Shown one piece after another: positions 4,773 through 23,196 of a DNA stretch of 28,086 nt. Position 1 is the stretch's first letter; the number at the start of each line of letters is the position of its first letter. This DNA is from a virus. The position numbers and the translations under genes are program-made. Below the pieces are notes generated by a model. That model saw nothing but the letters and a program-made list of their open reading frames with translations. It searched no databases and was not told the origin of the DNA. The stretch is taken from the IMG/VR virus record IMGVR_UViG_3300028025_003994, positions 1 through 28,086 of that record; one strand, written 5' to 3'.

Positions 4773-7700
4773 ATGACCGATCCATTCAACGAAAGCAAAA
4801 AAGGTTTTTTCACTTTTGAGAAAAACAGCGAGTATTCCTATCTTAACCAACCAATTGCTAAACCAGTTGAGGCGACTAAAGTCGAAGAAAAAGAAGAAGA
4901 GAAGTTTACTCCAGAAACCTATGGTGATTATGGCATCAAGATTCCTGATCCATTAAATCCATTTAAGATGTTTGATTCAAACGAGTGGGCAAACAATCCT
5001 GATTCGCGTGAAGAGGCAGCACTTAAAGTTACGGAGAATTACTACAATGAGCTTATGAAGCCAGAGGCTACTGTTCCTGCTATTGTTGATGGACAACTTA
5101 AGCAAGTGCAAGCATCTGAGGCTGGACGCTTAACAAAGGCTGGATTGCACGCATACGATAATAGCTTGCAATTGATTGGCATGGCGCAACAAAGGGAGGA
5201 TGGAGGATTCCGTCTTAATCCAATGACAGGTAAAAAAGATTTTGCATTTGGAAGTAAGAATCTTACTCCATATGATCCAGAAAAAGACAAGGATAGTCAG
5301 AAACGTCAAGCTGATGAAAATGGATATGGAGCAAATGATTACGAGTTGAGCAATAAAGAAATTTTTGGACGCGATCATGTATCTAGTGTTATTGATGCAT
5401 ACGCCAAAAAGAATGATTTAGATATTGAAGACTTAAAGCCAGAGAGTATTACGCCAGAACGCTTTGTTCAGATTCGTGATTCACTGCGTGAAGGCGATCC
5501 TTCTGGTGGTGCTTTTGAGGTAACTAAAAAGATTAATGGAAGTAACGATGCTGTTCTTGATGAGGAAGCACGTAAGGAGTATGCAGATGCGCTTGGTTAC
5601 TACACAAAAGAAAAGCAACTTGGTGACAAGCTTGTTGATATGTATAATGGACAACCTGTTATTAACTATGAAAAACTTACTGATCTTAATAAGTTTGAAG
5701 AAGCAGTTAATTCCTTGCAAATGCCAGCAGTTGATAAGGCTAGGTTCCTGACAACATTTAAGCGTAACTTTGAAGAGGATGCCGCAAGAATTCTTATGGA
5801 GCAACAATTAGGCTCTACCGCTCCAGAATTAGCATTTGCAGCAACTCCAGCAGGAGCAATAGCTACATATGCTGGCTTAATGGATGGTGAGAATGAAATT
5901 CAAAAATGGGCGCGTGAAGGAAATAAAACTGCTTATGAATTCCTTAAAGAGAATCCATTTTACTCCCAAGATACTCCATATGCTATTTCTGCACTAAGAC
6001 GTGTAGGACTAAGAACTGTTAATTCATTCCAGAATACCGCCCTTGGTGCTAGCGCCCTTGGTCTTGGATTTGTTGGGGTAGTAGCTAAAAAAGTAGGAGC
6101 CGAAGGCGTATCAGATTTGGCAAGAGAGGCTGGAATGTCAATGATTGAAGCAGGAGCATATTCAAGCAATGTCCTTACTGCTGGAGCTAAATATGATGGT
6201 GGAATAAATGAAGTATTTAGCATTGGTGACATTAGCGTTACTGATGAAGATTTGTATTCCGTTGTTGGTCAGGTTCTTGAAACTGTTGCAACTGGAGGTG
6301 CTTCAATGCTTGTTAAAGGCGCTATTAAAGGCGGCACAACTTCTTTAGCTAAAATGACATTAAAAGAGTCCCTTGAATTTGGAGCGGCTAAAGCTTCTCA
6401 ATCAATAGCTAAAAGACAAACAGCTGGATTTGCAACTAAGGCAGCAATCAAAGCTAAGGAAGCAGCTATATCATTGTGGACTAATTCTTCAAAAGTTAAA
6501 CTAGCTGAGAATATCTTGGCAACATCATTGCAAGGATCATTTGGTTCAGCTGGACAAGCTTTGTCTTCTTCTTATGGAGAAGCTATTGATAAGGGTATGA
6601 GTAGAGAAGATGCTCTTGCTGAAGCTACTGGCAAAGCTACAGCTAATGGACTTGCTACGTTTGCAGCAATGTCATTAATGAACATGGTTGCTCCAGGTGT
6701 TGAAAAGATTTTAATGTCACCTGAGACCCTTGTTGGTGCTGGTCAAGCAATTAAGAATACATTGGCTAGTCGTGCAGCACGTAAAAGCATTTCAGCTGGC
6801 TTAACTGATGTCGTTGGAGACAAGGCTGTCAGAACAGCCCTTTCTAAGGGCGTAGCTGACGCTGTAAGAGGTCAGGTGTCGAAAGAAGGTATTGGTGGCT
6901 ATATTGGCGCTGTCGCTCTTAACGGGGTTGCTGAAGGCCTTGAGGAGATGATTGACACTGCTCTTGCAACTACACTTGATGCCTACATGAATAACTCCCC
7001 AGAAGCAAGGAAGGAACTAGAGTCTGGTGGATTATGGCTTGATGTTATTAAGTCTGGTATTATGGGCGCAATGATGGGTAGCGGAGTGAATGCTGTATCG
7101 CTAACATCCAAAGATAAAAAGGAAATGGCAATGAAATCTAAAGATAGCATGAATGACTATCTCCAGAAAAAACTTCCAATGCTTTCACCTAGCCTACAAT
7201 CAAAAGTATTTGTTTCTCAAAAAGATAAGTCTCAACCACAAATGGCGCAGACGATTCAACAGATATTGCAAACTGGTGATCTAAATCAAAAGGTAGAGGC
7301 TCTTGCCAATCTTGGTAATATTGCTGCCGTTAATGCATTTACTCCCCAGACAACAGTTACGCCAACAGGAACCACTACTCCTACAACTACAGTAACCCCA
7401 GCAAAAGCTGCGCCTAGTCAACCAGTTGACGTTACTCCTGATTTCTTTGAGTCACTAGCCATTGACACTTCATACGATGCGCCAGATAACACGACATGGA
7501 CAAGAAAGCAAAATGCATCAGGTAATTCAGTAATGACTAGAAATGATTCTGCTGGCAATGTAAAAGAAATGACTACTACAGAGTTTGCTAATTTTGTTAA
7601 TACTCAAAACAAAACTACAGTTAGCAAAACCAAACCTGTTGTTACTACAAAAGCAGAAGAGGCTACAACAAAAGAAGTTACTCCTACTGAAGTATCTACT

Positions 7701-10700
7701 ACACCTACTTCATTTAAATTGTCTAATAAATCTGGTGTAGCTGTTGAAGTCAAAACTCCAGTTAAAGATGAAAAAGAATTAGCTGGCTACGCTTATGAAG
7801 AAGCTCATGGCAAATCTATTGCTGGAGAAAAAATTGAGCCAACTAAAACAGAGGATGTAATTTCAAAAGGTAAAACATACAAGATTGCTACTTACTCTAT
7901 TGATGGTAAACCAGCCGATTTACATAGCGTTGAAGTAGATAATGATGGTAATCCAGTGACCGTTGGCTACGCAGGAGAGACTACAACAAAATTCTATAAT
8001 AAAGCAGAACTCGTAAAACTACTTTCTTTAAGTAAATCTTCTCAAGTTGTCGTCAAGGATGATAATGATTTTAAATCTGAAGCGCAAGATGTTGCGCCAA
8101 AAGAAAAGGTTGAAACCAAAGCTAAAAAACCTTTATATTTAGAACCTGAAGAAAATCAAGAGTCTGCGATTTTTGGTTTACAAAAGGAGACAAAACCAAA
8201 ATCAAAAGCCCCCAAGCCTTCACCTGTTAAAAAAAGCGATGAAGTAACTGAATCTGAAATTGATGGTGAAGATAAATTACCAACAAGACATAAAGGGACT
8301 ATTAAAAAGTTTACTAAGGTTCTTAATAAACTTGGAATCAAAGTTTATGTTCGTGAAAACAATACGGAATTAAATAAATTTTTAACTGAAAACAATGCTC
8401 AGACAGTTGAAGACAATGCTATGGCGGCTACAACTATTAATGGCAAGCCAGCTATTGTAATTAATGCAGAGCAAGTAGGCAAGTTGCAAGACTTGCTCAC
8501 TGGTATGAAGCACGAAGTATTTCACACTATTGAAATAGCTTTCAGGAAAACACCAGAAGGCAAGAAACTCTATAACTTAATAAGCCCCCAAAAACTCTTG
8601 CAAGACAAGAAACTTGTTGAGTTTATGCAGAGAGAATACTCAAGCAAGTTTGCAGAACTTGATGAGACAAACGCTTTTTATGAAGTAATGAGAGCATTTA
8701 TCGCTGGTAAACTTCATGGAGAAACATTTACCTATAAGCCATTCTTGGAATACCTCAAAGCATTTATCAATCATGTAAGAAAGTTAGTGAAGGGTGACAA
8801 AGAACTTACTAATTATGTTGACAAACTTTCACGGTATTACGAGAGCGCAGTTAAAGATGCTGACAAGGAGTTAGGATTAAGTGTTGCTTCTACTGGCGTT
8901 TTCAAAAGCTTTATGTCTTCAATTGCGAGTAAAGCTAAAGATTTAACTAAATCAAAAGCAAAAGAAGGCAAAGCCATTCAAACAACAACTGCTAGCGAAA
9001 GTGATATTGACGATCTTGTTAATGATTTGCTTATTCAAATTAATAATGCTTATGAAGACAATGCCAATCCTGATGAAATATTCAACTATGTTGTAAGAAC
9101 CATTGATAATAGATTGGTTGGTGTTGATGTAGGATTGGATTCTTATAGTAAAACTAAAGTTTTTGAGATGGTCTTGGGCGCATTAAATAATGAAAGCTCT
9201 ACACCTGAGTTGAAAAGTTTATTTGAAAACAAAATTACTGATCTCGGAAAAGAAAAATCTCCCGTTATTGCGCTTCCTGCAAGTCAGGTTGAAAACATGG
9301 AGCCAATTAAAAAGAGATTAGATCTTGCTGGATGGACTGGCATTAGACGTTTTATTTCTGAAGTAAGAGAGGATGGATTAACTCGAAACCAGCCTGATGT
9401 CATGTCGTTTAATGATGACACAAAACTTCCATTTACAAATGCATTTATTGAGTTCCCAATGGACCCAGTTACCCAAAAGTATCCTGATCATGATTTGAAG
9501 TTTGGTGATGCAATGGAAAGCATTAATGCTGCTGGTGTTGTTGATGGCTATTTGATTTATAGTCATAGCATTGAAACATTTAATCCAGAAACCAATACAG
9601 GTTATATTACTCATCGTTTTATGAAGAGTCCTGCATTGAAGCCTAATGGAAAAATAAGTCCTTTCTTCTCTGTTAAACAATCTCAATATGCGCGTGAGTT
9701 TTACGACATGGTTACTGATAGCAATGTCATTGCAACTATGTTCACTCCAACTAATGAGGGAGTGATGATCACTTCACCAGAAGGCCTTATTAAGCTTGTA
9801 TTTGAGTCCCTTACCTCAAACAGAACTAAGGCAGAGAATGGCAAAACTCCAGAGGCATTCCTTAAACAAGGAGACAAGGATATTAAATTTGCTGATATAT
9901 TTGAATTTGTAGCGAAAGACAATAAAGATGGAACAAGCCCCTTCTACTACAAAGACGGGAAGATTGTGGTTAATACTGCAAAGCTTGCAAGAAACTTTAG
10001 CTTCATCAAGGAAGAGGCATTAAGCACTAAAGAGCAAAAGACTAGCGTTGCATTGATGGTTGCTTCTACTGTTCGCGCAGCTATTGAGGAGGAGATTCTT
10101 CACTTTGCAACCATTGGTGTTTTTGCTGGAGACAACAATCCCAAAACTGGCGTTAATAAACTAGTTGAGTTTTACGATGAACTAGAAAAACTTGGTTACT
10201 TCAATGATATGATTGATCAAATCAGGGAGATGCAAGGCATTGATAATGCTGGTGTGTCTCTTACTAATGAAGAGAAGATTGTTATTGCTGCGGAGGTAAT
10301 GTCATTCACCCATCAACGTGCAACTAATGGCGCTACCTATGGAGATGAATATCAACGCCTCTATGATGGCATGTATGCCAGAGGTGAGCAAGGAGGTAAT
10401 GCTCTTGCAACTGCGCGTCAATATGGTCAGACATTAAACAATATCCTTCAGGCTCGCGCAGCTACTTCCTTCATGTCTCCTAGGATGCAGGAAATGCTTG
10501 AGAAGCTAAACAAAGCCAAGGTTGAACTTGGTGTAAACCAAAGGCTCAATAACTCTGATCAACTTGCAGCAAACTACCTTAGCGAGCAATACCAACTCAA
10601 TAGAGGTAATATGCAGAAGTCTATTGATGAAGCATTTATGAATGACTCTTTTGCGGTTGAGGAATTCCGTGCTGAACTCAAAGAGATTAACATACCTATT

Positions 10701-13700
10701 CGCCAAGTTATTAATATTGACTTTGAAAAAGGAACAATAGACATCAATCCTGATTTTGCTGATTACTACAGAGAGAAATATGGAATTGACAAGTATGACT
10801 CAATCTTGTCTTACTTTAGCCGACTAAACGAACAGAGCGTAGCTAAAGACTTGGCTAAATCAGTTAAGTCTGCTCGTCAAGTAATGGACGCTATGCGCAT
10901 GTCTCTTGATGTTAATAATGAACTAGACAATCTAGCTACGCAATTGGTTAATGGCAACTTCGATCAAGTTATCAATTATCTTGAGGGCTACAACCAGCAA
11001 GAAGGAAAGATTGTATTTGATAGCTTAATTCAATTGGCGCAGTCTTTTGAATTTAACGACAATATTAGCTTGGCTATTGAAAAAGATAAAGCAATGGTCA
11101 AGAACTTCTATGACTTTGCTACACGACCTAATGAGGTTTTCAATAAGCCATATGTTGGATATCAGCCTACAACTGGCCCTACTGTTTCTCCATGGCAAAC
11201 AAATGCTATATCTGCGGAGAATGCTAAAAGAAAAGCTTATTACAATTCAGGTTTTATCAATCTTCTTAATCAATTAATTCCTAGAGGACAAGTTGATTAC
11301 TATAGTGATTCAGATAGTGATTACATCAACAAAGCAATTGCTCAATTAGTTCCTCAAGACATCATCATGCAAGGTCATGACGCTGTAATTAACGAACTGT
11401 ATAACGTGTTTAAAAATGAAAACATTTTACCCAACATTAAAAATGCACGTAACGCAAACACAGACAAGAAAAAACAAAATCAAATCATCTCATTACTTAC
11501 AAACAAAAACACCAGTATTGAGAACGGTGGCGTATTGCCTTCTTATGCTCCATTTATTGCATCTGTAAATAACTACAATGATCTAGTTGTAAACTTTGAT
11601 GAAATCATCCTCAACAAAAACCTGACGAGGGTTAATGAGTTTGGTAGAGAATTTGTTTCTCTTGATAACTTGCTTCCAGAGTCAAGCAATGGCGAGCGTA
11701 GATTAGCGGTTGGTGTTGATTTTGAGCCGAACATTTTTGGTTACTCAAATGAGTATCCATCAAATGTAATAAATGATAGGCTATATGTTGGCAGCATGAG
11801 GAATAAAGGCGAGAATGAGGACGTTATTGAGACTACTGCTCAATGGCAACGTTCTTTCCTTGGTCGATATACAAGCAGTGATAGAGAGCGCTATCCTGAA
11901 AAACCAATGACTGTTGAGTCTAATGCTGCAAAAGCTGGAGAAGAAGACTACAATAGGTATATGATGGGGCGTATTGCAGGTACTCCATTGCTTATTACAA
12001 AATTAGATGACAATGGTAATGAGTTCCTTAGTGATGTTTCATATGATGATTATTACAAAACAATGGGCTTTCAACCTGTTGTAAACAATGTCAGGATTTT
12101 TGATGGTTATGCAGATCCAGCTTTGTTGAATGAAAACCTTTTGAAGTTCTCAATTAGTGACAGGGGCATTGAATTGACTAAAAACTTCAGTGTTAAAATG
12201 CGCCAATTAAATAGTGACGCAGCAATCAAAACATTTGCTAGGGACGCAGGTAGTTTGGATATTGCAATCAATAAGATTACAGAAATGTTGTTTGATGGCA
12301 ATGAAGCTGGAATCAGAATTGATGACTGGTTTAATACCATCTCAATTTTGATTGGCTACAATAAAAAAACTGGTGAAGCAACTGTTGTTCGAAGCATTGA
12401 TGGACGTGAAACATTTGCATCCCAGTTTGCTGATCAAATGATTTTCAGAATGTTTGGCAAAGAAGACAATCGTTCTAAGAATCTGGAAGAATACATCGAG
12501 CTTCTTAGTAAGGCATATAAATCATTAAGACCTGAAGAATTTAAGGATGCTGGTAAACTTAGTGCAGAAGAAAAAAGAGTAATCATTGACGAGCTTCCTA
12601 TTTTCTTGGAATTGGTTGATGCAGCTAATAGAGACATTGGATTAGGAAGAAAAGCCTATAGCCGATTTAGAAGTCGTTTCTTAACAGGAACAATCAATGC
12701 TGATATTAGATTAATTCAAGAACAGGGCGCTGAAGGTATTCGCGCAAATGAAGAACTGGTTAAGTCTATTGCTGATAGTTATTATGACATTCAAGCAATG
12801 TTTGATGTTGAATGGCATTCAAACTATTTAACTAATGGTGGCCCTATTGGTTATCAGGGACTTACGGCATTGCAGTTGATGGATGAGTTTGCTCGCATTC
12901 CTAGTTCTGCCACTAATGAGTTCTTCGTCAAAGGGAAAATGCCTACTAAGGTTGGATATCTTCTTGATTACTACAACAATATGCAAGAAGCATATGGTAG
13001 TGTCAGAAAGAAAGATGCTGATGGCAAGTCTGGATACGCGCTAGACAACTTGATATTTAATCCAATTGAGCGCCCTGCTGACAGTCCCAGCGAGCTTGAT
13101 GAGGAATTCAATGCTGACATAGCCGCTAGACCTAGTGAGTTCACAGAGACGCTTAACGCGCTTCCACAAGGCTATGAGGGAACTGCTGAACAACTAGACG
13201 CAAATCGTCGTAAAGACCTTTTTGAAGAACAGAAAAGATTAAAGTCTTGGGCAACTCATACTGCTCTTGCTATTTTCCAAAGCATTCCAAGCACAGCTAA
13301 TTCTATCTTCACAAGAGCGGTTACACCTGATAGAGCCAAGTTATTTTTCTACTTGTTTGCAAAAGCTCAAGATATGAGTGCAACCATTGAGGATAAACGC
13401 GCAACTCAAGGCGCTCTTAATGCTTTAGTTGGCGAACAAATGACGCAACTTTCCAGTATTTACGGCACGTTAAAACAAGAAGTTAATCCATTTGCTGATA
13501 TTGCTGGTAAAGTAATGACTTACAACCATCCTTATGAGTTTCTCATGGATGTTGCTGAGGTTATTGCTGGCAAAGAAAGACAGTTTGTTGATGAACAGAG
13601 AGCATTGTCGGGAACACTTGCTAGTAGCATTGTGCCTCAATTAAGAAACAATGTTTCTAATGAACTACTAAACAACCAAAGATCATCTCAAGAAATACTT

Positions 13701-16700
13701 GATTCATTACAGGAGGATTTAGATAAAGGAGAATTACGTCCAGGAACTCTTTTTAATGCTCGTATGTTCCAACTTGGCAATGCTAATTCAATGCTTGATA
13801 GTTCATTGCTCATGAATGCTCCATTGTTCTCAATGTTGCTACAAGCTATGCCTAATCTGGTTGTTTATCAGCCAGCGCAATACACAGGCAAAACATCCAA
13901 TGTATCCAAGAATGTTGATATTGCATATCTTGATAATGGTGATGCGGTTCTTTATATTGATAATGCAATGGGTCTTGGTTCTAGTCAGCAACAAGAAATC
14001 CTTGAGAAACTTCTCATTGAAAGAATTGGTCAAGAAAGAGCTAATGGCGCAAGTGGACTTGAAAGCGTAATTAATTTTACAGCTGAAAACATTCGCAAAC
14101 AGATTCGCTATGCATTTAATATTGCTCCAGCACGTATTGAATCAATGGTTGCTAAAGCGGAGGAGGCACTGCGCTCTATTAATGGCATGCCCCCTGAAGC
14201 AATTAAACCGCTTGTTGATAAGTATCGTAATTCTCTTGAAGCAGAGGCTACAGAGAAGATGTCATTGCTTGCAGGTCACTTGTCATCCAGTAGGTTCGCT
14301 GAAAACGCATACGGACTAAGCAGTATTGACGCAAAAGGATTCTTCCAAACAATTCTCGCTCCAGAACCAGCTTCGGCTATGATCATGGGAGTTAAGACCG
14401 TTGTTGGTAAACCAAATCTATTTGACAGTTTGCGCTTAATAACAGAAATGTTCACTAATCCAGAAGCTTACGATGTTCTTAGCAAGATCAAAGCTCCTGA
14501 AGCAGATTTGATTACGGATAAGGTTAATGAGCGATATGAAGCATTTATTGAGTCAGCACTTAATAGATTTCAAGCAAAAGAAGTTCAAAGCTCCATGGTT
14601 TTTGAAATTGCAATGGATCAAGGCAGATCTTCCTTAACTCAAATGGAAGATGATGTAACATCAATAAATGAAATGGATTTAACTGATTATACTGATCCTT
14701 CTTATATTGCTACATTCCTTACTCAAGCATTTGAAGCAACCTTTAATGGAGAAAGCACAGATAGATCTTATTCTGAAATTCAACAATTGGTTAAGAGAGT
14801 CAATGGCATTGATTCAGATTTAATTAGAAACATGATTGATAAACTTCTGTTGCAAGAAGCTTCTAAAAACACTAGCCAAAGAATGGGTTATAAAGAGGTT
14901 GACACTGTAAGCGGTATCTTAACTGAAGCCGATTACAAGCCAGACTTCATGTATCGCTATGTTGCATCAGAGTTGATTAACGCTTTGTCTCCAGCATCTG
15001 ATTACGCTGGAACAATTGAGGACCTAAATGACTTACCTAGAGAAAACAGCGCTTACAATATCATTAAGAGTGGTGCATTCCCTCTTCTTGTTGATAACGT
15101 AGGCAATACTAAATCATCATCTTATGGTAATCTTACTAATTTCTACTATGGTAAATCACCATTAACTGAACTGTTTGAACGCAAGCGCAAGAATGAGTTT
15201 GTTAGCTTGCTTGCATCTGAAACACCAAAAGCACAAGAGGTTCTTCAAAATCAAATTAACAAACTTGGAAGAACTGATGCATCAAGTAAAACAATTGACT
15301 TGAATGTATTTGAATCTGATGACTTACTATTTAAGATAAGACAATCTATTGAGAAACTTGTAGGATCAGCAAACATTAACCAAGCTATTGCAAACATCGG
15401 TAGGCTTAAACAGAGAAATGAAGAACTTAACAATGGAGCACTTGAAAGAATTAAGGACATTGATGAAGAAATCAAATCTTTACAAGAAAACGGATTAGGC
15501 TTTGTCGAATTAATGATGTTCCAAAACGCTGGTAAGAAACTTACTGATGCTTCTGAAGTTATGGATCGCGTGGCTTCTGCTATTGCAGGTTTAGTTGCTG
15601 ATAAACAAATGAAGCTCCAGAACCATTCTACTAGAATATCTAATTCACTACAAAGTAATTCAAGTGAGTATATTGATGATTACAATCAGTATGTAACTAA
15701 TATTTACAATATTGATTCTGAAATCAAAAAGCTTATTGAGTCAAATCAAGAAACACCTCTTGATACACAGTCATATCAATCTGCTATCAATAACTTGATT
15801 GCAAGCAGAGATAGTCTGGCTATTAGAGCAAACAATGAAGCATCTCTTATTGCTGATTCTATCGCTCAAGAGATTCTTTCAAATGTTGTAAATGGAGCAT
15901 TTGGTTTAATTCCTCCAGTTGCTGAAATGACTGCTTTTATCAAGTCGAATTATATGGCTGGTATGCGCATTTGGGAAATTGGTAGTGTTGATGTAACTTC
16001 TCCAACTCCTCTTGGTGCGTATCTTAGCTCTACTTTCTTTAGTAAGTCAGCTAAAACTCGCATAGCTAGAAATCTATTTAGCGCCAACACAATAAGTAGA
16101 ATGCTTGATGGATACATGGCGTCTTCCGACTTGAAGGATAGAATTGATTCTATTACAAGCTCCAACAACAAGCTCTTTAGCCAACTAAAGAAAAACAAAA
16201 AACTTGATAAGGTTATCAAGAAAGCTGTTGCGGATAACAAAAATGTATTTGATCGAGACTTAATCAAGAAGAATGTAGCTTCCGCTATTTTGAATAGTGA
16301 TGTTGTTATTGAGTCCTTGAACAATGAATTTAGTTTTGGTTTTGGTGATTTGATTGATAACCTTGACAATAAGGATGCTGATTCTGGTCTTATTGCAGAG
16401 TCTGAAGAATCTATTGGATTGCATAACTCGGCGCGTGTAATTAGCTTACTGCTGGCTGAGCGCAAACAACTGCAAAAAATAATTAATCAAAGACAAAACG
16501 AAGCATCAAACGATCAGGAAAATGAAGTATCAAGCAATAAGCAAAGCAATAAGCGAGTGTTTATGCAGCTGCGCAAAAAAGTTCGATTTGATGAGCAAAC
16601 AACTCTTCAGCGCGTAGATAGAGTAGGTCCTAGCTTCAACATGCTTATTAACCTTGTCTATGATCCAGATACTCTTGAGAACACTCCTGTAAATGAGAAT

Positions 16701-19700
16701 CGAAAAGCTGAAGCGCAGCTACAAATGCAGATCATTCAGGAAGCTTCCAGACTCTTTATCGAGAGAGAAGGTGAGGCTATGTATAGAGCAATCAATGAAG
16801 ACGTAGATGTCTTTGGTTTAGGTTTTGACTTAGACCAAAACATTCAACGTGTTATTTCAATTGCGGATATACGCAACAAAATGGAAAGAGTCGCAAAGGG
16901 TACCTATGCTGATTTTGCTGATGAAGTATTTGATGATGAGATGGATAGCGCCAACACTAAAGCTAAGCAAATGTTTGGGGTAACAGTAAAAGACATGATT
17001 ACTCATAACTTATCTCCAGCTGTGATTACCACCAAAGACAAGGTTGTTGACGGAGCTACTTATCCAATGGAGCTGGTAAACATCAAAGTTATCAATAGAA
17101 ACGCTAGATTCGCAACGGAACAAGATCAACTAAGAAAACTAGCTCTATTTATTGAGGATGAATACACAACAAGTGTATATATGCCAACAACAACAAAACT
17201 TGAAAACCAACCAACCAAAACATATTTAACTTACAATCAAGACGCTCAATCTGAATTAAAAAGAATCAAAGAACAATCAGGCGCAAAATGGTCAGTTGAT
17301 GAGCAATTCAAAGGAATCATCTTCCGTGCTTCATTGAACCCAGGAGCAAATGGAAAGGGAGGACTCAAAACTCAAACACATAAAGACATTGATGTTAATC
17401 TTGATAAACCAATCAATGACAAACTTGCTGCTGCGACAAAGGTAGATCCTAATACGACAGTTAGAGAGTTTATCAAACTAGCTAAAAAGAATTTCAGTGG
17501 TTTCTTTATCCAGAATACTATTGGAGAACCAATTAGTGACTTTGCTCAAGGCATTGGAGTTATTGGAACAATAAAACCAGTAAATAAACTGAAGGATGAA
17601 GATATTAAAGATGTTTTTGCAGAGATTCACTCATTTGCAAGTGATGCAAATAACAAGCAAATCTTGCAGACTTCAGGCATGGAATTTCTTTCCAAGTCAA
17701 AAAATCAATACTCTAAAGATGAGCAAAAAGCTATTATTGAAAAAGCTTATGGAATTGTAATTAAAGAAAACTCTTTCCTTAATCCGCAATCTAAAGCTAG
17801 TCATGCATTGCTGCTTAACGAAGCGCAACTTACGGATGTCATTAACATGATCAACAGTGAGGAGATGGTTGGTAAATACGACAAATTCAAAACATATGTT
17901 GATGAGGCTGTTGATTCAATTGGAAAGCTCTTCAGCATCAATGAGAGCATTGCTAAATCAACTGCTGTAGCGCCATATAATCTATCTAGAGCCATCCTAG
18001 ACCTTGACCTTAGCCATAACTACTCAAGACTATTCTCTGTCTTATATGCGTCAAATACGATGTATAGACTTGTAGCTGGTGCTATCAATCCTGAGGTTTC
18101 CGACAACATGCTTTCAAACCTTACGGTTCATGAAAATGCATTAATGCGCCGTAAATTCTCTGGTGGTATTGGTTCATACAATGAAGCATTGAACTTAGTG
18201 GGAGTAATTGACCATGGACTAAATGGGTCATCTGGAAGAAACCGATTTAACGCAGAGTATCAAAGCTTCCAAAACAAGATGGGTGTTGCATCTAAAGACC
18301 TTAACAATGATTATCTCAATGGGGCAAGAGCAATGCTTATAGCGTCCCTTAAAGGAATTAAGATCGCAAACAAAAAAGATGGAGGAAGCGAAGGTGATTA
18401 TGTCCGCAAGGTTAATCAATGGGCTTACATGTTTAAGGCTGGATATAGAGACTACAAGAAGATTGATGAGAACAAAGCTAAATTCAATCAAAACGCAAAC
18501 AAGTTATCTAGAATTACTTCTAAGTTAAAACCAATCGGAAGAAAACAAAGCAGAGAGGGAGCCGCAACTGAAGAGCTTTACTCATTGCTTGAAAGAAACA
18601 TTAACAGTTTGGCCAACATTATCAATACGGGAACACTTAAGGAAAATGATGTGGATGCTGCTATTGCTGCAATGATTTCAAAACTAGAAGCTGGATTAAG
18701 TCAAGATGAAGTAAACGCTGTAAATAAGTATTCAAATGCTTTGCTTGAAGAGTTTGGCGATATTTACGATGCTCATAGAATAGCAAACACATTTGCAAGC
18801 AGAGACAATCGAGTAATCATTAGTGAAGATAAATTAAAATCAGCAACAAAAGTATCTGATGCACTTGGTCGCCCTTACTCTATCTTGCCACTAAAAACTG
18901 GCTTTGTGCGCAATCCACTGAATACGGCCGATAATGAATTTGATGAAAGCTCTTTATCCATTAATGAGTTCATTGGGTTTGATCGTTCTAGCTTGAACTA
19001 TAAAGGAAAACGTTCTTTGACTGTCCAAGAAAATGTTGGTGATCCGCTACGCCCAATTGACTTGAATCCGTTTACTGCTGTAGATGGATTAGCGCGTGAT
19101 GCAATGTATCGAACATTTCTTTCTCCAACATTTAATGTCATTAAAAAATTAATGGGAAATGTTGAGTTCAATGAAAACAGACAAATGATAACAACTCATG
19201 GATTTTTGCATGGTGTTGCATCTGTTGAGATTGGATCAATTAAAAATGGTGAATACTTCCCGCATATTGCTTCTTACATCATGCACATGGTAGAGAAAAA
19301 CATCAGAAATGACATGCCTAAGATGATTGATGACAGCATTCTGAGTGATGTGATTAAAATTGGAAACCTATCAACGCTAGTAAGAGCATTGTTTAGCTTT
19401 ATCCAGCCAATTACAAACGGTGTTCTTCCAGCTTTTTCCAAGTTTGCAACAGTTGGAATGATGAACGCCTTTAGTTATAGAAGTTGGTTTGGCGCAACTC
19501 ATAAATCGACAGAGGCTTTAGCTTCAGCGTATAAACATGCGATAATGGGCTATTCAAAACCTGATAGTGCTATTGCTAATTTCGTAAAAGAAAACAGCAT
19601 TAACAGCTATAAATGGAAAGCTGAAGGAGCAAACATCAGGGAGACTCAAATTAGTCTGGCTAAATACCATAAAGAAAACAGAATTAAATATGGTGGTAGA

Positions 19701-20864
19701 TGGCTTGCTGCTCGTATTAGAAATGTCGGCGAGAAATCACTTGATATTACAATCGGTGGCCCAGAAAGAGCTAACGTCCAAGCAATTTTTACTTTTGAGC
19801 TATTCAATGAACTTCAGCAAACAATGGGTGATAAAGCACCTAAGACAGTTGAAGAAATGTTCAAGATGAATCCAGATGACATTAGCACATTGGCTAAAAC
19901 TAAAGCCGACATCATGGTATCTGACTTCATGGGAATGAGCGACAAAGCTAAGAAAGCACAAATTTATAACCTTGATGTTAAGCGTCCAATGCTTAGCTTG
20001 ATAACCTCTGGACTTACTAGATTCGGAAACCACAAGTTGACCACCAATGCAAACTTAATGGTTTATGGAAAGCACTTGTTTAAGAGAGCCACAGGTAATG
20101 ACAGATATGACCCAAACATTACAGCAAGTGCTGTTGAGAATGTTGCTGGAACATTGATTCAAAACATTCTTTACCATTATGCTAAAGCTCAAGTTATGGT
20201 TCCTGTTTTGACCTGGGCTGCTGCTGCATTGACAACATTTGTTTCCGAGTTTTTTGATGAAGATGAACCAGATGAATCTAAACTAGAAGTTATCAACGAA
20301 AGGTATTATGATTGGCTTGAAGCAATCACCCAAGCAACTCCAGATGGATTGTTCTTATTCAACTGGATAAAAGAATGGGCATTCCCTTATATGAGCGCAT
20401 ACGAAAGCATTGATGAGGGTATTGGAAGTGGACTTACTGGAACTCTTGGCAAGGCAACTGAAAATGCTTTATGGGAAACAACTGGATTTGTCCCTGCTAT
20501 TGGTGCAGCCCTTGGCTTGCCAGCGGTAGAGTCGGTTGTTAAAGTTGTCGGAAGTTATGGATTTAACCAGATTGTTCCAGCTGATGAGGAAGAATTCATG
20601 GATAAAGTAAAAAGTGATCGCGACAGATTGCGTCAAGCAGAAAGAGCGTTCTCAACATTTACTTCTCCAATTTCCGAACCTTATGAAGCAACAAGAGACA
20701 TGAGCGCGGTATTCCTAAACTATATGTCACCTAAGGATGGATACGATGGTATCTCTACTCAGGAATTTGTATATGGATTGCTCAGTCAGTCGATTGGAAC
20801 GAGAGAGGCTAAGTCTAATCAATCAAGAAGACATAAGGAGGATGGAGGATGGGGAGGCTACTAA
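4773..20864 (+). CDS. Giant polyvalent-type virion protein with metallopeptidase-like site, 5363 aa
   Basis: One uninterrupted frame of 16.1 kb, predicted near 600 kDa, far longer than the about 3500-aa N4 virion RNA polymerase. Visible layout: hydrophilic N-terminus (1-330); Ala/Gly-rich, membrane-active-looking stretches (about 421-440, 497-520, 581-600); a helix with AEGLEE (720-725); Thr/Pro linkers (about 857-885 and 943-980); a charged linker (about 1090-1170). A zinc-peptidase-like site HEVFH (1247-1251) has a possible third ligand Glu1304 in YEVM. A second site, EEILH (1773-1777), has a downstream AEVM (Glu1841). Long helical regions follow. Near the C-terminus are hydrophobic segments at about 4871-4900 and 5141-5160, and the chain ends GGWGGY. 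Polyvalent phage proteins are known to be packaged and injected, and often carry such peptidase modules. Position after two coiled-coil genes matches T7 gp16. No Walker A, NPPY methylase or N4-type polymerase motif was found by eye. Most of its length has no assignable function. Confidence 0.9.
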   Translation: MTDPFNESKKGFFTFEKNSEYSYLNQPIAKPVEATKVEEKEEEKFTPETYGDYGIKIPDPLNPFKMFDSNEWANNPDSREEAALKVTENYYNELMKPEATVPAIVDGQLKQVQASEAGRLTKAGLHAYDNSLQLIGMAQQREDGGFRLNPMTGKKDFAFGSKNLTPYDPEKDKDSQKRQADENGYGANDYELSNKEIFGRDHVSSVIDAYAKKNDLDIEDLKPESITPERFVQIRDSLREGDPSGGAFEVTKKINGSNDAVLDEEARKEYADALGYYTKEKQLGDKLVDMYNGQPVINYEKLTDLNKFEEAVNSLQMPAVDKARFLTTFKRNFEEDAARILMEQQLGSTAPELAFAATPAGAIATYAGLMDGENEIQKWAREGNKTAYEFLKENPFYSQDTPYAISALRRVGLRTVNSFQNTALGASALGLGFVGVVAKKVGAEGVSDLAREAGMSMIEAGAYSSNVLTAGAKYDGGINEVFSIGDISVTDEDLYSVVGQVLETVATGGASMLVKGAIKGGTTSLAKMTLKESLEFGAAKASQSIAKRQTAGFATKAAIKAKEAAISLWTNSSKVKLAENILATSLQGSFGSAGQALSSSYGEAIDKGMSREDALAEATGKATANGLATFAAMSLMNMVAPGVEKILMSPETLVGAGQAIKNTLASRAARKSISAGLTDVVGDKAVRTALSKGVADAVRGQVSKEGIGGYIGAVALNGVAEGLEEMIDTALATTLDAYMNNSPEARKELESGGLWLDVIKSGIMGAMMGSGVNAVSLTSKDKKEMAMKSKDSMNDYLQKKLPMLSPSLQSKVFVSQKDKSQPQMAQTIQQILQTGDLNQKVEALANLGNIAAVNAFTPQTTVTPTGTTTPTTTVTPAKAAPSQPVDVTPDFFESLAIDTSYDAPDNTTWTRKQNASGNSVMTRNDSAGNVKEMTTTEFANFVNTQNKTTVSKTKPVVTTKAEEATTKEVTPTEVSTTPTSFKLSNKSGVAVEVKTPVKDEKELAGYAYEEAHGKSIAGEKIEPTKTEDVISKGKTYKIATYSIDGKPADLHSVEVDNDGNPVTVGYAGETTTKFYNKAELVKLLSLSKSSQVVVKDDNDFKSEAQDVAPKEKVETKAKKPLYLEPEENQESAIFGLQKETKPKSKAPKPSPVKKSDEVTESEIDGEDKLPTRHKGTIKKFTKVLNKLGIKVYVRENNTELNKFLTENNAQTVEDNAMAATTINGKPAIVINAEQVGKLQDLLTGMKHEVFHTIEIAFRKTPEGKKLYNLISPQKLLQDKKLVEFMQREYSSKFAELDETNAFYEVMRAFIAGKLHGETFTYKPFLEYLKAFINHVRKLVKGDKELTNYVDKLSRYYESAVKDADKELGLSVASTGVFKSFMSSIASKAKDLTKSKAKEGKAIQTTTASESDIDDLVNDLLIQINNAYEDNANPDEIFNYVVRTIDNRLVGVDVGLDSYSKTKVFEMVLGALNNESSTPELKSLFENKITDLGKEKSPVIALPASQVENMEPIKKRLDLAGWTGIRRFISEVREDGLTRNQPDVMSFNDDTKLPFTNAFIEFPMDPVTQKYPDHDLKFGDAMESINAAGVVDGYLIYSHSIETFNPETNTGYITHRFMKSPALKPNGKISPFFSVKQSQYAREFYDMVTDSNVIATMFTPTNEGVMITSPEGLIKLVFESLTSNRTKAENGKTPEAFLKQGDKDIKFADIFEFVAKDNKDGTSPFYYKDGKIVVNTAKLARNFSFIKEEALSTKEQKTSVALMVASTVRAAIEEEILHFATIGVFAGDNNPKTGVNKLVEFYDELEKLGYFNDMIDQIREMQGIDNAGVSLTNEEKIVIAAEVMSFTHQRATNGATYGDEYQRLYDGMYARGEQGGNALATARQYGQTLNNILQARAATSFMSPRMQEMLEKLNKAKVELGVNQRLNNSDQLAANYLSEQYQLNRGNMQKSIDEAFMNDSFAVEEFRAELKEINIPIRQVINIDFEKGTIDINPDFADYYREKYGIDKYDSILSYFSRLNEQSVAKDLAKSVKSARQVMDAMRMSLDVNNELDNLATQLVNGNFDQVINYLEGYNQQEGKIVFDSLIQLAQSFEFNDNISLAIEKDKAMVKNFYDFATRPNEVFNKPYVGYQPTTGPTVSPWQTNAISAENAKRKAYYNSGFINLLNQLIPRGQVDYYSDSDSDYINKAIAQLVPQDIIMQGHDAVINELYNVFKNENILPNIKNARNANTDKKKQNQIISLLTNKNTSIENGGVLPSYAPFIASVNNYNDLVVNFDEIILNKNLTRVNEFGREFVSLDNLLPESSNGERRLAVGVDFEPNIFGYSNEYPSNVINDRLYVGSMRNKGENEDVIETTAQWQRSFLGRYTSSDRERYPEKPMTVESNAAKAGEEDYNRYMMGRIAGTPLLITKLDDNGNEFLSDVSYDDYYKTMGFQPVVNNVRIFDGYADPALLNENLLKFSISDRGIELTKNFSVKMRQLNSDAAIKTFARDAGSLDIAINKITEMLFDGNEAGIRIDDWFNTISILIGYNKKTGEATVVRSIDGRETFASQFADQMIFRMFGKEDNRSKNLEEYIELLSKAYKSLRPEEFKDAGKLSAEEKRVIIDELPIFLELVDAANRDIGLGRKAYSRFRSRFLTGTINADIRLIQEQGAEGIRANEELVKSIADSYYDIQAMFDVEWHSNYLTNGGPIGYQGLTALQLMDEFARIPSSATNEFFVKGKMPTKVGYLLDYYNNMQEAYGSVRKKDADGKSGYALDNLIFNPIERPADSPSELDEEFNADIAARPSEFTETLNALPQGYEGTAEQLDANRRKDLFEEQKRLKSWATHTALAIFQSIPSTANSIFTRAVTPDRAKLFFYLFAKAQDMSATIEDKRATQGALNALVGEQMTQLSSIYGTLKQEVNPFADIAGKVMTYNHPYEFLMDVAEVIAGKERQFVDEQRALSGTLASSIVPQLRNNVSNELLNNQRSSQEILDSLQEDLDKGELRPGTLFNARMFQLGNANSMLDSSLLMNAPLFSMLLQAMPNLVVYQPAQYTGKTSNVSKNVDIAYLDNGDAVLYIDNAMGLGSSQQQEILEKLLIERIGQERANGASGLESVINFTAENIRKQIRYAFNIAPARIESMVAKAEEALRSINGMPPEAIKPLVDKYRNSLEAEATEKMSLLAGHLSSSRFAENAYGLSSIDAKGFFQTILAPEPASAMIMGVKTVVGKPNLFDSLRLITEMFTNPEAYDVLSKIKAPEADLITDKVNERYEAFIESALNRFQAKEVQSSMVFEIAMDQGRSSLTQMEDDVTSINEMDLTDYTDPSYIATFLTQAFEATFNGESTDRSYSEIQQLVKRVNGIDSDLIRNMIDKLLLQEASKNTSQRMGYKEVDTVSGILTEADYKPDFMYRYVASELINALSPASDYAGTIEDLNDLPRENSAYNIIKSGAFPLLVDNVGNTKSSSYGNLTNFYYGKSPLTELFERKRKNEFVSLLASETPKAQEVLQNQINKLGRTDASSKTIDLNVFESDDLLFKIRQSIEKLVGSANINQAIANIGRLKQRNEELNNGALERIKDIDEEIKSLQENGLGFVELMMFQNAGKKLTDASEVMDRVASAIAGLVADKQMKLQNHSTRISNSLQSNSSEYIDDYNQYVTNIYNIDSEIKKLIESNQETPLDTQSYQSAINNLIASRDSLAIRANNEASLIADSIAQEILSNVVNGAFGLIPPVAEMTAFIKSNYMAGMRIWEIGSVDVTSPTPLGAYLSSTFFSKSAKTRIARNLFSANTISRMLDGYMASSDLKDRIDSITSSNNKLFSQLKKNKKLDKVIKKAVADNKNVFDRDLIKKNVASAILNSDVVIESLNNEFSFGFGDLIDNLDNKDADSGLIAESEESIGLHNSARVISLLLAERKQLQKIINQRQNEASNDQENEVSSNKQSNKRVFMQLRKKVRFDEQTTLQRVDRVGPSFNMLINLVYDPDTLENTPVNENRKAEAQLQMQIIQEASRLFIEREGEAMYRAINEDVDVFGLGFDLDQNIQRVISIADIRNKMERVAKGTYADFADEVFDDEMDSANTKAKQMFGVTVKDMITHNLSPAVITTKDKVVDGATYPMELVNIKVINRNARFATEQDQLRKLALFIEDEYTTSVYMPTTTKLENQPTKTYLTYNQDAQSELKRIKEQSGAKWSVDEQFKGIIFRASLNPGANGKGGLKTQTHKDIDVNLDKPINDKLAAATKVDPNTTVREFIKLAKKNFSGFFIQNTIGEPISDFAQGIGVIGTIKPVNKLKDEDIKDVFAEIHSFASDANNKQILQTSGMEFLSKSKNQYSKDEQKAIIEKAYGIVIKENSFLNPQSKASHALLLNEAQLTDVINMINSEEMVGKYDKFKTYVDEAVDSIGKLFSINESIAKSTAVAPYNLSRAILDLDLSHNYSRLFSVLYASNTMYRLVAGAINPEVSDNMLSNLTVHENALMRRKFSGGIGSYNEALNLVGVIDHGLNGSSGRNRFNAEYQSFQNKMGVASKDLNNDYLNGARAMLIASLKGIKIANKKDGGSEGDYVRKVNQWAYMFKAGYRDYKKIDENKAKFNQNANKLSRITSKLKPIGRKQSREGAATEELYSLLERNINSLANIINTGTLKENDVDAAIAAMISKLEAGLSQDEVNAVNKYSNALLEEFGDIYDAHRIANTFASRDNRVIISEDKLKSATKVSDALGRPYSILPLKTGFVRNPLNTADNEFDESSLSINEFIGFDRSSLNYKGKRSLTVQENVGDPLRPIDLNPFTAVDGLARDAMYRTFLSPTFNVIKKLMGNVEFNENRQMITTHGFLHGVASVEIGSIKNGEYFPHIASYIMHMVEKNIRNDMPKMIDDSILSDVIKIGNLSTLVRALFSFIQPITNGVLPAFSKFATVGMMNAFSYRSWFGATHKSTEALASAYKHAIMGYSKPDSAIANFVKENSINSYKWKAEGANIRETQISLAKYHKENRIKYGGRWLAARIRNVGEKSLDITIGGPERANVQAIFTFELFNELQQTMGDKAPKTVEEMFKMNPDDISTLAKTKADIMVSDFMGMSDKAKKAQIYNLDVKRPMLSLITSGLTRFGNHKLTTNANLMVYGKHLFKRATGNDRYDPNITASAVENVAGTLIQNILYHYAKAQVMVPVLTWAAAALTTFVSEFFDEDEPDESKLEVINERYYDWLEAITQATPDGLFLFNWIKEWAFPYMSAYESIDEGIGSGLTGTLGKATENALWETTGFVPAIGAALGLPAVESVVKVVGSYGFNQIVPADEEEFMDKVKSDRDRLRQAERAFSTFTSPISEPYEATRDMSAVFLNYMSPKDGYDGISTQEFVYGLLSQSIGTREAKSNQSRRHKEDGGWGGY
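16176..16189 (-). repeat. Copy 2 of the 14-base word, inside the giant gene
   Basis: Exact reverse-strand copy, extended here to a 16-base inverted repeat CTTTAGTTGGCTAAAG. On the plus strand it encodes part of a Ser-Gln-Leu-Lys stretch of the giant protein, so its presence is not forced by protein conservation shared with the other copies, which lie in other frames and genes. Confidence 0.75.
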
Positions 20865-21688: not shown

Positions 21689-21778
21689 GACTTCTAGTGT
21701 CATGTTTTCAAGTCACGGAGACAGGCACTCTTCCCATTTAAGGGATTTATCCTGGGTCGCCACCCCAGCCTAGAAGTC
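21689..21778 (-). ncRNA. 90-nt structured element between thyX and the HNH gene
   Basis: GACTTCTAG (21689-21697) and CTAGAAGTC (21770-21778) form a perfect 9-bp closing stem. Inside are three smaller stems: CTGGG/CCCAG (21752-21756 / 21764-21768, 7-nt loop), TCCC/GGGA (21732-21735 / 21742-21745), and TGTC/GACA (21698-21701 / 21720-21723). The layout resembles a four-way junction about the size of a tRNA, but D- and T-loop consensus bases are absent, so it is not a tRNA. It begins 7 nt after the thyX stop and ends 15 nt before the preferred HNH start. Since all flanking genes are on the minus strand, that strand is assumed; a cis-regulatory or RNA-processing role is inference. Confidence 0.5.
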
Positions 21779-21785
21779 AAATTTG

Positions 21786-22436
21786 TTATCGTCCGTATCC
21801 AAGGGCTTTCAAGGTGTTCTTGAATGGCTGATTAGGAAGTTGATGAATAGTGTGAAGCATAATCTGAGCAATGTCTCTTGTCTCTTGTTGAGTGTCTGGT
21901 TTGAGACGCAGATTGAATAGATGGATAAATGCCGCTAATGATCCAGTCCAAATAAACTTTGTCATCAAGCATAGGGGAAGATGGCATCTAGCTTGTTCTT
22001 TTGCTACGCCAAAATCTACCATCATGTTGTAGATTCTTTTAGCTTCATTAATAAGCTTCTCTACATCTTCAACAAAAACCTCATTTACTGTATTGCTTAC
22101 ATTACCTGAACTCCCTTGCTTGCTATCTTTGGACTGGTAACGATATCGCGTTGGTTGTTCATACTCATCTGAGAAGTCAACATAACGACCACTGATGCTA
22201 TTAGCAGTAAGACCAACCTGATGCTTGAAAAGCTGACGCTCAACATAAATTGGACATTCAATTCTAAACTGTAACTGTGGATGACGCAGCGGAGACATAT
22301 GCTTATGATCAATTAAGAACTTGATTAACTTAGCGTCTTTGTCGCTGAATTCTTTTGACTCTTTATCGTAACTAACGCGAGCCGCATTGACGATCATAAG
22401 GTCGTCTCCAAAGTGATTCAGTAATTCTACTTTCAT
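21786..22436 (-). CDS. thyX: Flavin-dependent thymidylate synthase ThyX, 216 aa
   Basis: ThyX methylates dUMP to dTMP using methylene-tetrahydrofolate, with FAD and NADPH, giving the phage its own thymidylate supply. Family marks: an early NAARVSY (17-23), RHPQLQFRIECPIYVERQ (51-68), the signature region KHQVGLTANSISGRY (71-85), QARCHLP (149-154) with Arg150, and FNLRLKPDTQQETRDIA (174-190) with Arg177. Length is at the short end of the usual 210-250. The signature departs from the canonical RHRxxxxxxxS: the basic pair around the histidine is Lys and Gln, and the spacing to Ser82 is one residue longer. The start overlaps the stop of the upstream RHH gene (ATGA), so translation is coupled. The stop lies 7 nt before a structured element, then the HNH gene. 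Confidence 0.92.
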   Translation of the reverse strand: MKVELLNHFGDDLMIVNAARVSYDKESKEFSDKDAKLIKFLIDHKHMSPLRHPQLQFRIECPIYVERQLFKHQVGLTANSISGRYVDFSDEYEQPTRYRYQSKDSKQGSSGNVSNTVNEVFVEDVEKLINEAKRIYNMMVDFGVAKEQARCHLPLCLMTKFIWTGSLAAFIHLFNLRLKPDTQQETRDIAQIMLHTIHQLPNQPFKNTLKALGYGR

Positions 22437-22597
22437 AATTCTAATAACAATAACATTTTTAAAGCTCTTTCTGTAATCCTACTTGCTGGTTCTCCAGTCT
22501 TTTCGCTAAGTAATTTTAGTTCTGAGATTACACGTGGTGACAATGTTAATGCAAGTTCTTTCCTTTGTAATTCTTTTTTAATTCGAGGCCTTCCCAT
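22433..22597 (-). CDS. Small ribbon-helix-helix (CopG/Arc-like) protein, 54 aa
   Basis: Translation from the ATG at 22595-22597 gives MGRPRIKKELQRKELALTL as a basic arm and beta strand, then SPRVISELKLLSEKTGEP as helix 1, and ASRITERALKMLLLLEL as helix 2. A basic N-terminus, a strand with alternating residues (KELALTL), and two helices joined by a GEPASR turn are the classic ribbon-helix-helix plan of small DNA-binding repressors. The stop TGA overlaps the thyX ATG by 4 nt (ATGA), so it is almost certainly translated together with thyX. It may repress its own operon; a direct repeat upstream (22638-22656) is a candidate operator. Short length makes the call less certain than for larger genes, but the fold pattern and coupling are convincing. 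Confidence 0.75.
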   Translation of the reverse strand: MGRPRIKKELQRKELALTLSPRVISELKLLSEKTGEPASRITERALKMLLLLEL

Positions 22598-22637
22598 GTT
22601 TTTATGTGTAATGGTCTTAATAAAATCTTTAAGTTTT

Positions 22638-22658
22638 GCTGTCTATTCCAGCTGTCAA
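22638..22658 (-). promoter_or_regulatory. Candidate -35 box and operator repeats upstream of the RHH-thyX pair
   Basis: The six bases GCTGTC occur twice, at 22638-22643 and 22651-22656, 13 nt apart (just over one helical turn). The first also forms a GCTG/CAGC inverted repeat with 22649-22652. The right copy overlaps a perfect minus-strand -35 hexamer TTGACA (22653-22658 on the complement). A -10 box at the right distance is weak (AACTTA or ACTTAA). It lies 41-61 nt upstream of the RHH start. RHH proteins usually bind short repeats as pairs of dimers, so autoregulation is plausible but unproven. Confidence 0.35.
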
Positions 22659-22660
22659 CC

Positions 22661-23118
22661 AGAAGATATTTCTACATTTGCTCGCCCAGCAGCTACACGC
22701 GCTCACTGCCTAAACTCATAGTATGATTATCTGATGTCATCACGAGCACCTTGTGGTTTCCCACACTCCAACCCCAGATCAGGTCGCTAATAGAACTCTG
22801 CCAGACAAGGCTGTTAGCAGTGTTGCACCACCGCAGGTAAAAGTCCTATCCCCTCATTGCTGGAGCTGGAGTGTGGTGTCGGTCTTGCACCCGACTTTGG
22901 TGTCACAATTGATTAGTGAGAATCTGCACACCTACATTTCTCAATTCAACTTTGGCTTGACGCGCATGGAGAGTTACTACCACATCTTGCGTTGAGTCAT
23001 TCTCCAAAGCTGGATTGAGAAGACATACTTTAAGCGGTATGTCAGCGCCTTACATAGTCAGCATCCAAATACCTACCAAGTAATACTGCATCATCCAATA
23101 ACAGTAACTGACTATATA
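22661..23118 (+). ncRNA. Large structured RNA candidate in the 525-nt gene-free stretch beside tRNA-Ile
   Basis: No convincing gene lies between 22598 and 23122. Stems seen: AGAA/TTCT (22661-22664 / 22670-22673); TGCTCG/CGAGCA (22679-22684 / 22743-22748); CCACACTCCA/TGGAGTGTGG (22761-22770 / 22867-22876, perfect); GCTAATAG/CTGTTAGC (22786-22793 / 22811-22818); GTCGG/CCGAC (22878-22882 / 22891-22895); an 18-position helix (22938-22955 / 23004-23021, 16 Watson-Crick pairs) stacked on CTTGACGC/GCGTTGAG (22956-22963 / 22989-22996); GACATAC/GTATGTC (23022-23028 / 23037-23043, perfect); ATAGTCAG/CTGACTAT (23054-23061 / 23108-23115, perfect) enclosing TACTG/CAGTA (23084-23088 / 23102-23106). Wobbles read as G-U on the plus strand five times and on the minus strand once, so the plus strand is favoured, though the neighbours are minus. 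Known large RNAs found beside phage tRNAs are GOLLD and ROOL; I cannot confirm either. Confidence 0.55.
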
Positions 23119-23122
23119 AAAT

Positions 23123-23196
23123 TGGTTGCGGGAGAAGGAGTTGAACCTTCAGTTCGGGTTTATCAGACCAGCGTGTTACTATTACACCATCCCGTA
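23123..23196 (-). tRNA. tRNA-Ile (anticodon GAT), CCA encoded
   Basis: Read on the minus strand the gene folds as a cloverleaf: acceptor TACGGGA / TCCCGCA (6 of 7 pairs, A2-C71 mismatched); D-stem GTGT/ACAC with a 7-nt loop; anticodon stem CTGGT/ACCCG (28-42 mismatched) with loop CTGATAA, hence anticodon GAT; a 4-nt variable region; and T-arm GAAGG/CCTTC with the fully canonical loop TTCAACT. The discriminator A73 and an encoded CCA (23123-23125 on the complement) follow. The D-loop lacks the usual adjacent GG. Two stem mismatches and the reduced D-loop make it divergent; it may still be functional. It sits 5 nt from the end of the DUF3310 gene. Confidence 0.85.

Follow-up and report, generated by a model that had tools for sequence, protein, structure and literature searches.

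The window analysed here is a 28,086-nt stretch of viral DNA (positions 1–28,086 of IMG/VR record IMGVR_UViG_3300028025_003994), in which a 525-nt gap at 22598–23122 is flanked by tRNA-Ile(GAT) on one side and by a ribbon-helix-helix (RHH) gene and thyX on the other (Table 1). The gap contains no evident gene, its longest open stretch being 86 codons, and a protein-coding reading was ruled out because no frame is conserved. Inverted repeats are abundant and comprise an 18-nt repeat with 16 Watson–Crick pairs (22938–22955/23004–23021), a 17-nt repeat (88%) that contains a perfect 10-bp run (22761–22777/22860–22876), a perfect 7-bp hairpin (23022–23028/23037–23043) and a 12-nt repeat (92%, 23050–23061/23108–23119). 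A preliminary description of this DNA had pointed to the gene-free gap beside tRNA-Ile and to its many inverted repeats, including the 18-position helix; the gap holds as described and the repeats are present beyond shuffle expectation.

Table 1 Features of the RNA locus and of the genes beside it in the window.
Feature	Position	Strand	Basis or remark
tRNA-Ile(GAT)	23123–23196	minus	relatives have tRNA-Met(CAT) in the same place
Stem module H1 (TAGTCAG...CTGACTA), between tRNA and P0	23048–23121	minus	90% identity over 74 nt with L002–L005
P0 hairpin, GACAUAC-CGCUUAAA-GUAUGUC, precedes the core in the long form	23022–23043	minus	variant comparison
Inserted domain between P0 and P1, window only; holds the 18-position helix 22938–22955/23004–23021	22877–23021	minus	folding
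Core module: P1, CA bulge, X–X', UG-AGGG...AGCGACCUGA internal loop, P2 and variable head	22761–22876	minus	model R1 match, covariation, MFE
P1 5' arm (CCACACTCCAGCTCCAG)	22860–22876	minus	inverted repeat; P1 covariation
Left invariant strand CAAUGAGGG, X = A	22851–22859	minus	sequence
P2 and variable head, 62 nt	22789–22850	minus	P2 covariation; fold of the window head
Right invariant strand AGCGACCUGA and X' (U)	22778–22788	minus	sequence; X–X' pairing in members
P1 3' arm (CTGGGGTTGGAGTGTGG)	22761–22777	minus	inverted repeat; P1 covariation
3' domain (GGGAAACCA..ACATCAGATAANCRTACTATGAG..CTGGTTGAC), common to L106, L231, L234 and L270	~22628–22760	minus	68–70% identity over 146 nt
RHH gene, 54 aa, downstream of the RNA	22433–22597	minus	context only
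thyX, after the RHH gene	21786–22436	minus	context only

Folding of the whole 525 nt gave −175.1 kcal/mol on the minus strand (z = −4.46 against dinucleotide shuffles) and −137.6 kcal/mol on the plus strand (z = −2.2). The corresponding minimum free energies of the core at 22761–22876 were −59.1 (z = −5.6) and −38.0 (z = −1.7), and those of the tRNA-proximal stem −20.3 and −9.7, with the 18-nt helix alone folding about equally on both strands (z = −4.3/−5.1). Across homologues, the inner P1 and P2 pairs present G–U and A–C combinations in a ratio of 50:2 when read on the tRNA strand, and a tRNA lies within 1 kb on the same strand in 30 members and on the opposite strand in none; these two counts assign the window's RNA to the minus strand. 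The comparisons show a predicted structured non-coding RNA encoded on the same strand as the tRNA, thyX and DUF3310 genes. The plus-strand origin proposed earlier is contradicted by the pair counts and the tRNA orientations, and a plus-strand RNA was rejected on the strand folds and the homologue counts; that proposal probably rested on the helices of the inserted domain, which are near-equal on both strands.

Four loci (L002–L005) have the same DUF3310–tRNA–gap–thyX order, but their likeness to the window is limited to the modules next to the tRNA and to dispersed motifs. A motif common to all, a stem around GCAATGAGGG...AGCGACCTGATC, came to light through a short BLAST match in contig L086, and pattern scans of IMG/VR for two short strands 40–70 nt apart, with variants, yielded about 100 further loci, most of them true members. 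Three of the four scans carried no P1 or P2 criterion; the first required part of one P1 arm and gave 13 loci. The resulting RNA class represents about 40 distinct phage lineages in IMG/VR, with members drawn from contigs of which many are fragmentary, and an independent pattern search recovered the same two invariant strands.

The class consensus is P1, CAXUGAGGG, P2–head–P2', AGCGACCUGAX', P1', with a P1 helix of about 8–17 bp and a total core size of about 65–160 nt. The minimum free energy fold of the window on the minus strand follows this order, with P1, the CA bulge, an A–U and a U–A pair, a G/G mismatch, AGG/CCU, an asymmetric G/AGCGA loop and P2. Heads range from 24 to 101 nt among the members listed and are of several types, a recurrent one opening with the hairpin CGUC-ACUAA-GACG. 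The heads of L124, L130, L154, L218 and L230 carry another recurrent arrangement, TAGGTGAG-hairpin-TTGTAACTG, which differs from the CGTC-ACTAA-GACG type. Model R1 matches the window at 22869–22768 with 60.7 bits and an E-value of 5.5e-16, a match that is partly by construction (the window copy is among the 34 seeds) and whose E-value is rough owing to the short calibration. Run over loci retrieved on account of DUF3310 or thyX, 570 kb in all, R1 gave five matches, all true.

Pairing in the core is strongly supported by covariation, which had been put forward as a check on the preliminary description and is found in P1, X–X' and P2. Of the 68 members whose flanks are distinct, 54 have at least six contiguous P1 pairs, against 8% when flanks were shuffled among members; those below this value mostly have a shorter stem, or a mismatch or bulge. 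Among 38 distinct members, standard pairs occupy 89.5% of P1 and X–X' cells (46.9% shuffled), two-sided changes number 190 (64 shuffled), and none of 500 shuffles reached either value, with pairing falling to 41–46% when the partner was shifted by one column. Covariation was observed at all 10 modelled P1 pairs. P2 is paired in 91.9% of cells and shows two-sided changes at all four modelled pairs. X–X' is A–U or U–A in 38 of 38 distinct members, a count that is less independent than that for P1 since some patterns fixed one or both letters.

Part of the core's invariance stems from the search patterns themselves. Fifteen loci were found through the ACUAA hairpin and the left strand alone, and 14 of them retain the right strand (complete or lacking the final A), so that conservation of this strand is not merely a product of the search. 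Diverged copies also back the U–A pair, the second copy of L217 having A and U and L288/L289 having U and G; the drift seen in the second copy of L217, L281 and L288 is mostly pair-preserving. One copy in a tRNA array (L290, ~918) has the left strand and the ACTAA hairpin with no right strand found within 135 nt, and is either degenerate or has a very long head.

Read on the minus strand from the tRNA, the long form in the window runs H1, P0, inserted domain, core and 3' domain. H1 folds far better on the minus strand and is defined by identity and folding rather than by covariation. The P0 hairpin occurs in seven variants, all paired at 7/7 positions, with compensatory combinations AUAC/GUAU, AUGC/GCAU and AGAC/GUCU. 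No homologue of the inserted domain (23021–22877) was found among the fetched loci, and the 18-bp helix was rejected as the heart of the RNA for this reason. The multi-stem, tRNA-linked phage RNA proposed in the preliminary description is real, but its conserved part is 22876–22761 and not this helix. Where the 3' domain is shared (L106, L231/L234 and L270), P0 follows within a few bases of the end of a TTGACA-17-TAATAAT promoter, and not all the ORFs after the RNA are related, both of which argue that the RNA forms its own unit. Contig L106 most resembles Verrucomicrobia phage P8625, which suggests possible verrucomicrobial hosts for this group. L003 and L086 share another domain 3' of the core (CGGTCATG..TAAAG..TGAGAAATATCC), unlike that of the window, and 3' modules seem to have been exchanged.

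Members are linked to tRNA genes and to promoters in a substantial part of the class. A tRNA lies within 100 nt in 24 of 68 members, compared with 10% of positions picked at random in these loci, and in arrays a spacer of −2 to 7 nt often separates the P1 edge from the tRNA (L109, L117, L118, L120, L122, L123, L165, L216, L217, L220, L237 and L238). Spacers to the tRNAs on both sides are 1 and 7 nt in L118, 1 and 4 nt in L120, and 3 and 12 nt in L237. This linkage is not universal, as almost half of the class lacks a tRNA within 1.5 kb. Some class members open a tRNA array at its 5' end, some lie within one or close it at the 3' end, and others stand alone; they have no constant downstream gene. 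In 12 of 68 members P1 comes right after a sigma70-type promoter that matches the consensus at 10 or more of 12 bases, against 0.6% of random places, and in L109, L122 and L165 the order is promoter, RNA, 4 nt and tRNA-Gly. A GG-/GC-rich subgroup has a T run (U5) straight after P1. Most phage records contain one copy. The 96-kb phage G048 (the contig of L237) has two, at 18501–18584 and 68647–68777, a long form (AGTGACC variant) and an array form between tRNA-Arg and tRNA-Leu. In the tRNA array of L238, positions 4928–5010 gave a sub-threshold match to abiF (25.9 bits, gathering score 37, E-value 0.93).

The RNA class is, as these searches show, practically absent from bacterial genomes and near-restricted to phage contigs. 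The exact pattern gave 10 matches across 85,000 bacterial species, of which one was convincing (L209, a Saprospiraceae MAG contig), and L209 was the sole member in a scan of 198 Bacteroidota genomes. The motif was found in no host RNA at the scanned spacing in bacterial genomes, making mimicry of rRNA sequence unlikely. R1 had no match in T4, T5, HK022, phi29, crAss001, phage G, P8625, S-PM2, S-CRM01, ACG-2014f, vB_BcoS-136 or StarPlatinum, the last two of which are tRNA-rich phages; this null result is weak for five of the 12, HK022 included, owing to a tool warning. BLAST of three members against INPHARED returned nothing relevant.

Scanning the window and 19 related loci with Rfam models (cmscan, gathering score) gave no match to GOLLD, ROOL, HEARO, manA, wcaG or any other family in the RNA, in agreement with the earlier suggestion that a match to neither GOLLD nor ROOL would indicate a new class, and permissive scans of the window region, the L003 region and six loci likewise gave no family match in the RNA. 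No tRNA or tmRNA was found in the element with ARAGORN or Rfam. Nor was any description of the class found in the open-access literature, a comparison that a 2017 survey, reportedly of 224 candidate RNAs, lies outside. As judged against Rfam and the open-access literature, this is a new RNA family, the claim of novelty covering the family and not its mechanism.

GOLLD and ROOL are structured phage and prophage RNAs of unknown function, often near tRNA islands (PMC12286853), and the new class is likewise a structured phage RNA near phage tRNA genes. Unlike these large RNAs (659 nt for one ROOL example and >800 nt for many GOLLDs; PMC12286853), it has a core of about 65–160 nt, a different architecture and no Rfam match. 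Formation of a homo-oligomeric RNA nanocage is a further trait of ROOL and GOLLD. HEARO traits are likewise missing, with no model match and no HNH gene directly beside the RNA. The structured (cyano)phage RNAs manA and wcaG (PMC2864571, PMC9964418) are described as cis elements in the 5' UTRs of genes, and the new class matches neither Rfam model. Two stable RNAs of the T4 tRNA cluster, C and D (species 1 and 2), resemble the new class in being small and in lining up with phage tRNA genes on their strand, but R1 matches nowhere in T4 and the core strands are missing there. A likeness of the 3' motif GAAATATC to T4 rnaC was too short and was dropped. The class therefore bears on an old question, the role of the non-tRNA RNAs in phage tRNA clusters.

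The loop is kept in about 40 lineages of uncultured phages while the surrounding pairs change, which strongly supports a selected RNA function, and on these comparative grounds the existence of the RNA class appears close to certain. Layout, the sole basis for a reading of its action, points to an autonomous phage non-coding RNA that would act in trans, with the invariant loop binding a conserved partner, and we give this a probability of roughly 0.55. We infer trans action from the start, middle, end-of-array and lone positions, the lack of a constant downstream gene and the restriction of invariance to the internal loop; the RNA would be a free actor and not an mRNA leader. It may owe its release to a promoter and terminator of its own or else to the maturation enzymes of the tRNAs beside it, in which case tRNA processing within arrays would free the RNA and P1 would close its ends. 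The freely varying helices would serve as scaffold and the invariant loop as working surface for one conserved partner, perhaps a protein or some host machine that is universally conserved. The long form in the window is probably co-transcribed with tRNA-Ile; its core is flanked by P0, the inserted domain and the 3' domain. Against action in trans, the GG-rich subgroup ending in U5 could be a decorated terminator. More tentatively, and with lower confidence, the RNA may be phage-specific, carried like an extra tRNA, freed by tRNA-processing enzymes and acting through its loop on a target that many bacterial hosts have in common, such as a factor in translation, tRNA processing or defence; if true, it would be the RNA equivalent of the takeover proteins that phages encode. 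A small, usually single-copy RNA with an exact loop is amenable to pull-down, probing and deletion.

Three alternatives assign the RNA a role in cis or in processing. The put RNAs of HK022 are small structured phage antiterminators near promoters, and a put-like antiterminator, or an RNA polymerase-binding leader, could help transcription across untranslated tRNA arrays. Such an element would explain why the L109, L122, L165 and L238 copies lie right behind strong promoters ahead of tRNA genes, long untranslated tRNA operons being in need of termination protection. We nevertheless consider it unlikely, as copies also lie mid-array or at the 3' end (L118, L217, L237 and the GG subgroup), are not confined to early leaders and are in many cases followed directly by U5; HK022 itself, in a weak empty result, has no R1 match. 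Tight tRNA spacers of 0–7 nt with a terminal helix at the edge would also fit a structured spacer that matures and protects phage tRNA or mRNA ends and has no function as a free RNA, but a spacer leaves unexplained an invariant 20-nt loop in about 40 lineages whose helices change, as well as stand-alone copies with their own promoters, and we regard this as distinctly improbable. The aptamer-like anatomy, with its invariant internal loop, and the long forms of the window, L106 and L231 that stop shortly before ORFs could instead indicate a ligand-sensing, riboswitch-like 5' leader. This is a more doubtful proposition still, since what lies downstream ranges from the RHH gene to unrelated ORFs and tRNAs, and a copy set between tRNAs lacks any ORF to control. 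Chance folding or a decayed gene, to which only the homologue-free inserted domain (23021–22877) would lend itself, is refuted for the core module by covariation, promoters, strand bias and model specificity and has a negligible likelihood.

Two further features of the record were observed. An open frame on the plus strand (4773–20864; 5363 codons) occupies more than half of the 28-kb record and had no Pfam match when searched in three pieces. A second structured RNA, with no Rfam match, lies on the minus strand at 21693–21782, between thyX and an HNH gene, and its fold alone is no stronger on the minus than on the plus strand. Its interior (GGCGACYCAGGATAAAKCCCTTRAATGGGA..GAGTGCCTG..AAAACATGACA) is 98–99% identical in L002, L003 and L005 and 84–92% identical in L098, L099, L107 and L134. 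Homologues of this RNA precede unrelated ORFs, and their closing stems differ completely in sequence yet stay paired through compensatory changes (GACTTCTAG/CTAGAAGTC, TTGCATTAAG/CTTAATGCAA and CTCTCGCCAGT/ACTGGCGAGAG).
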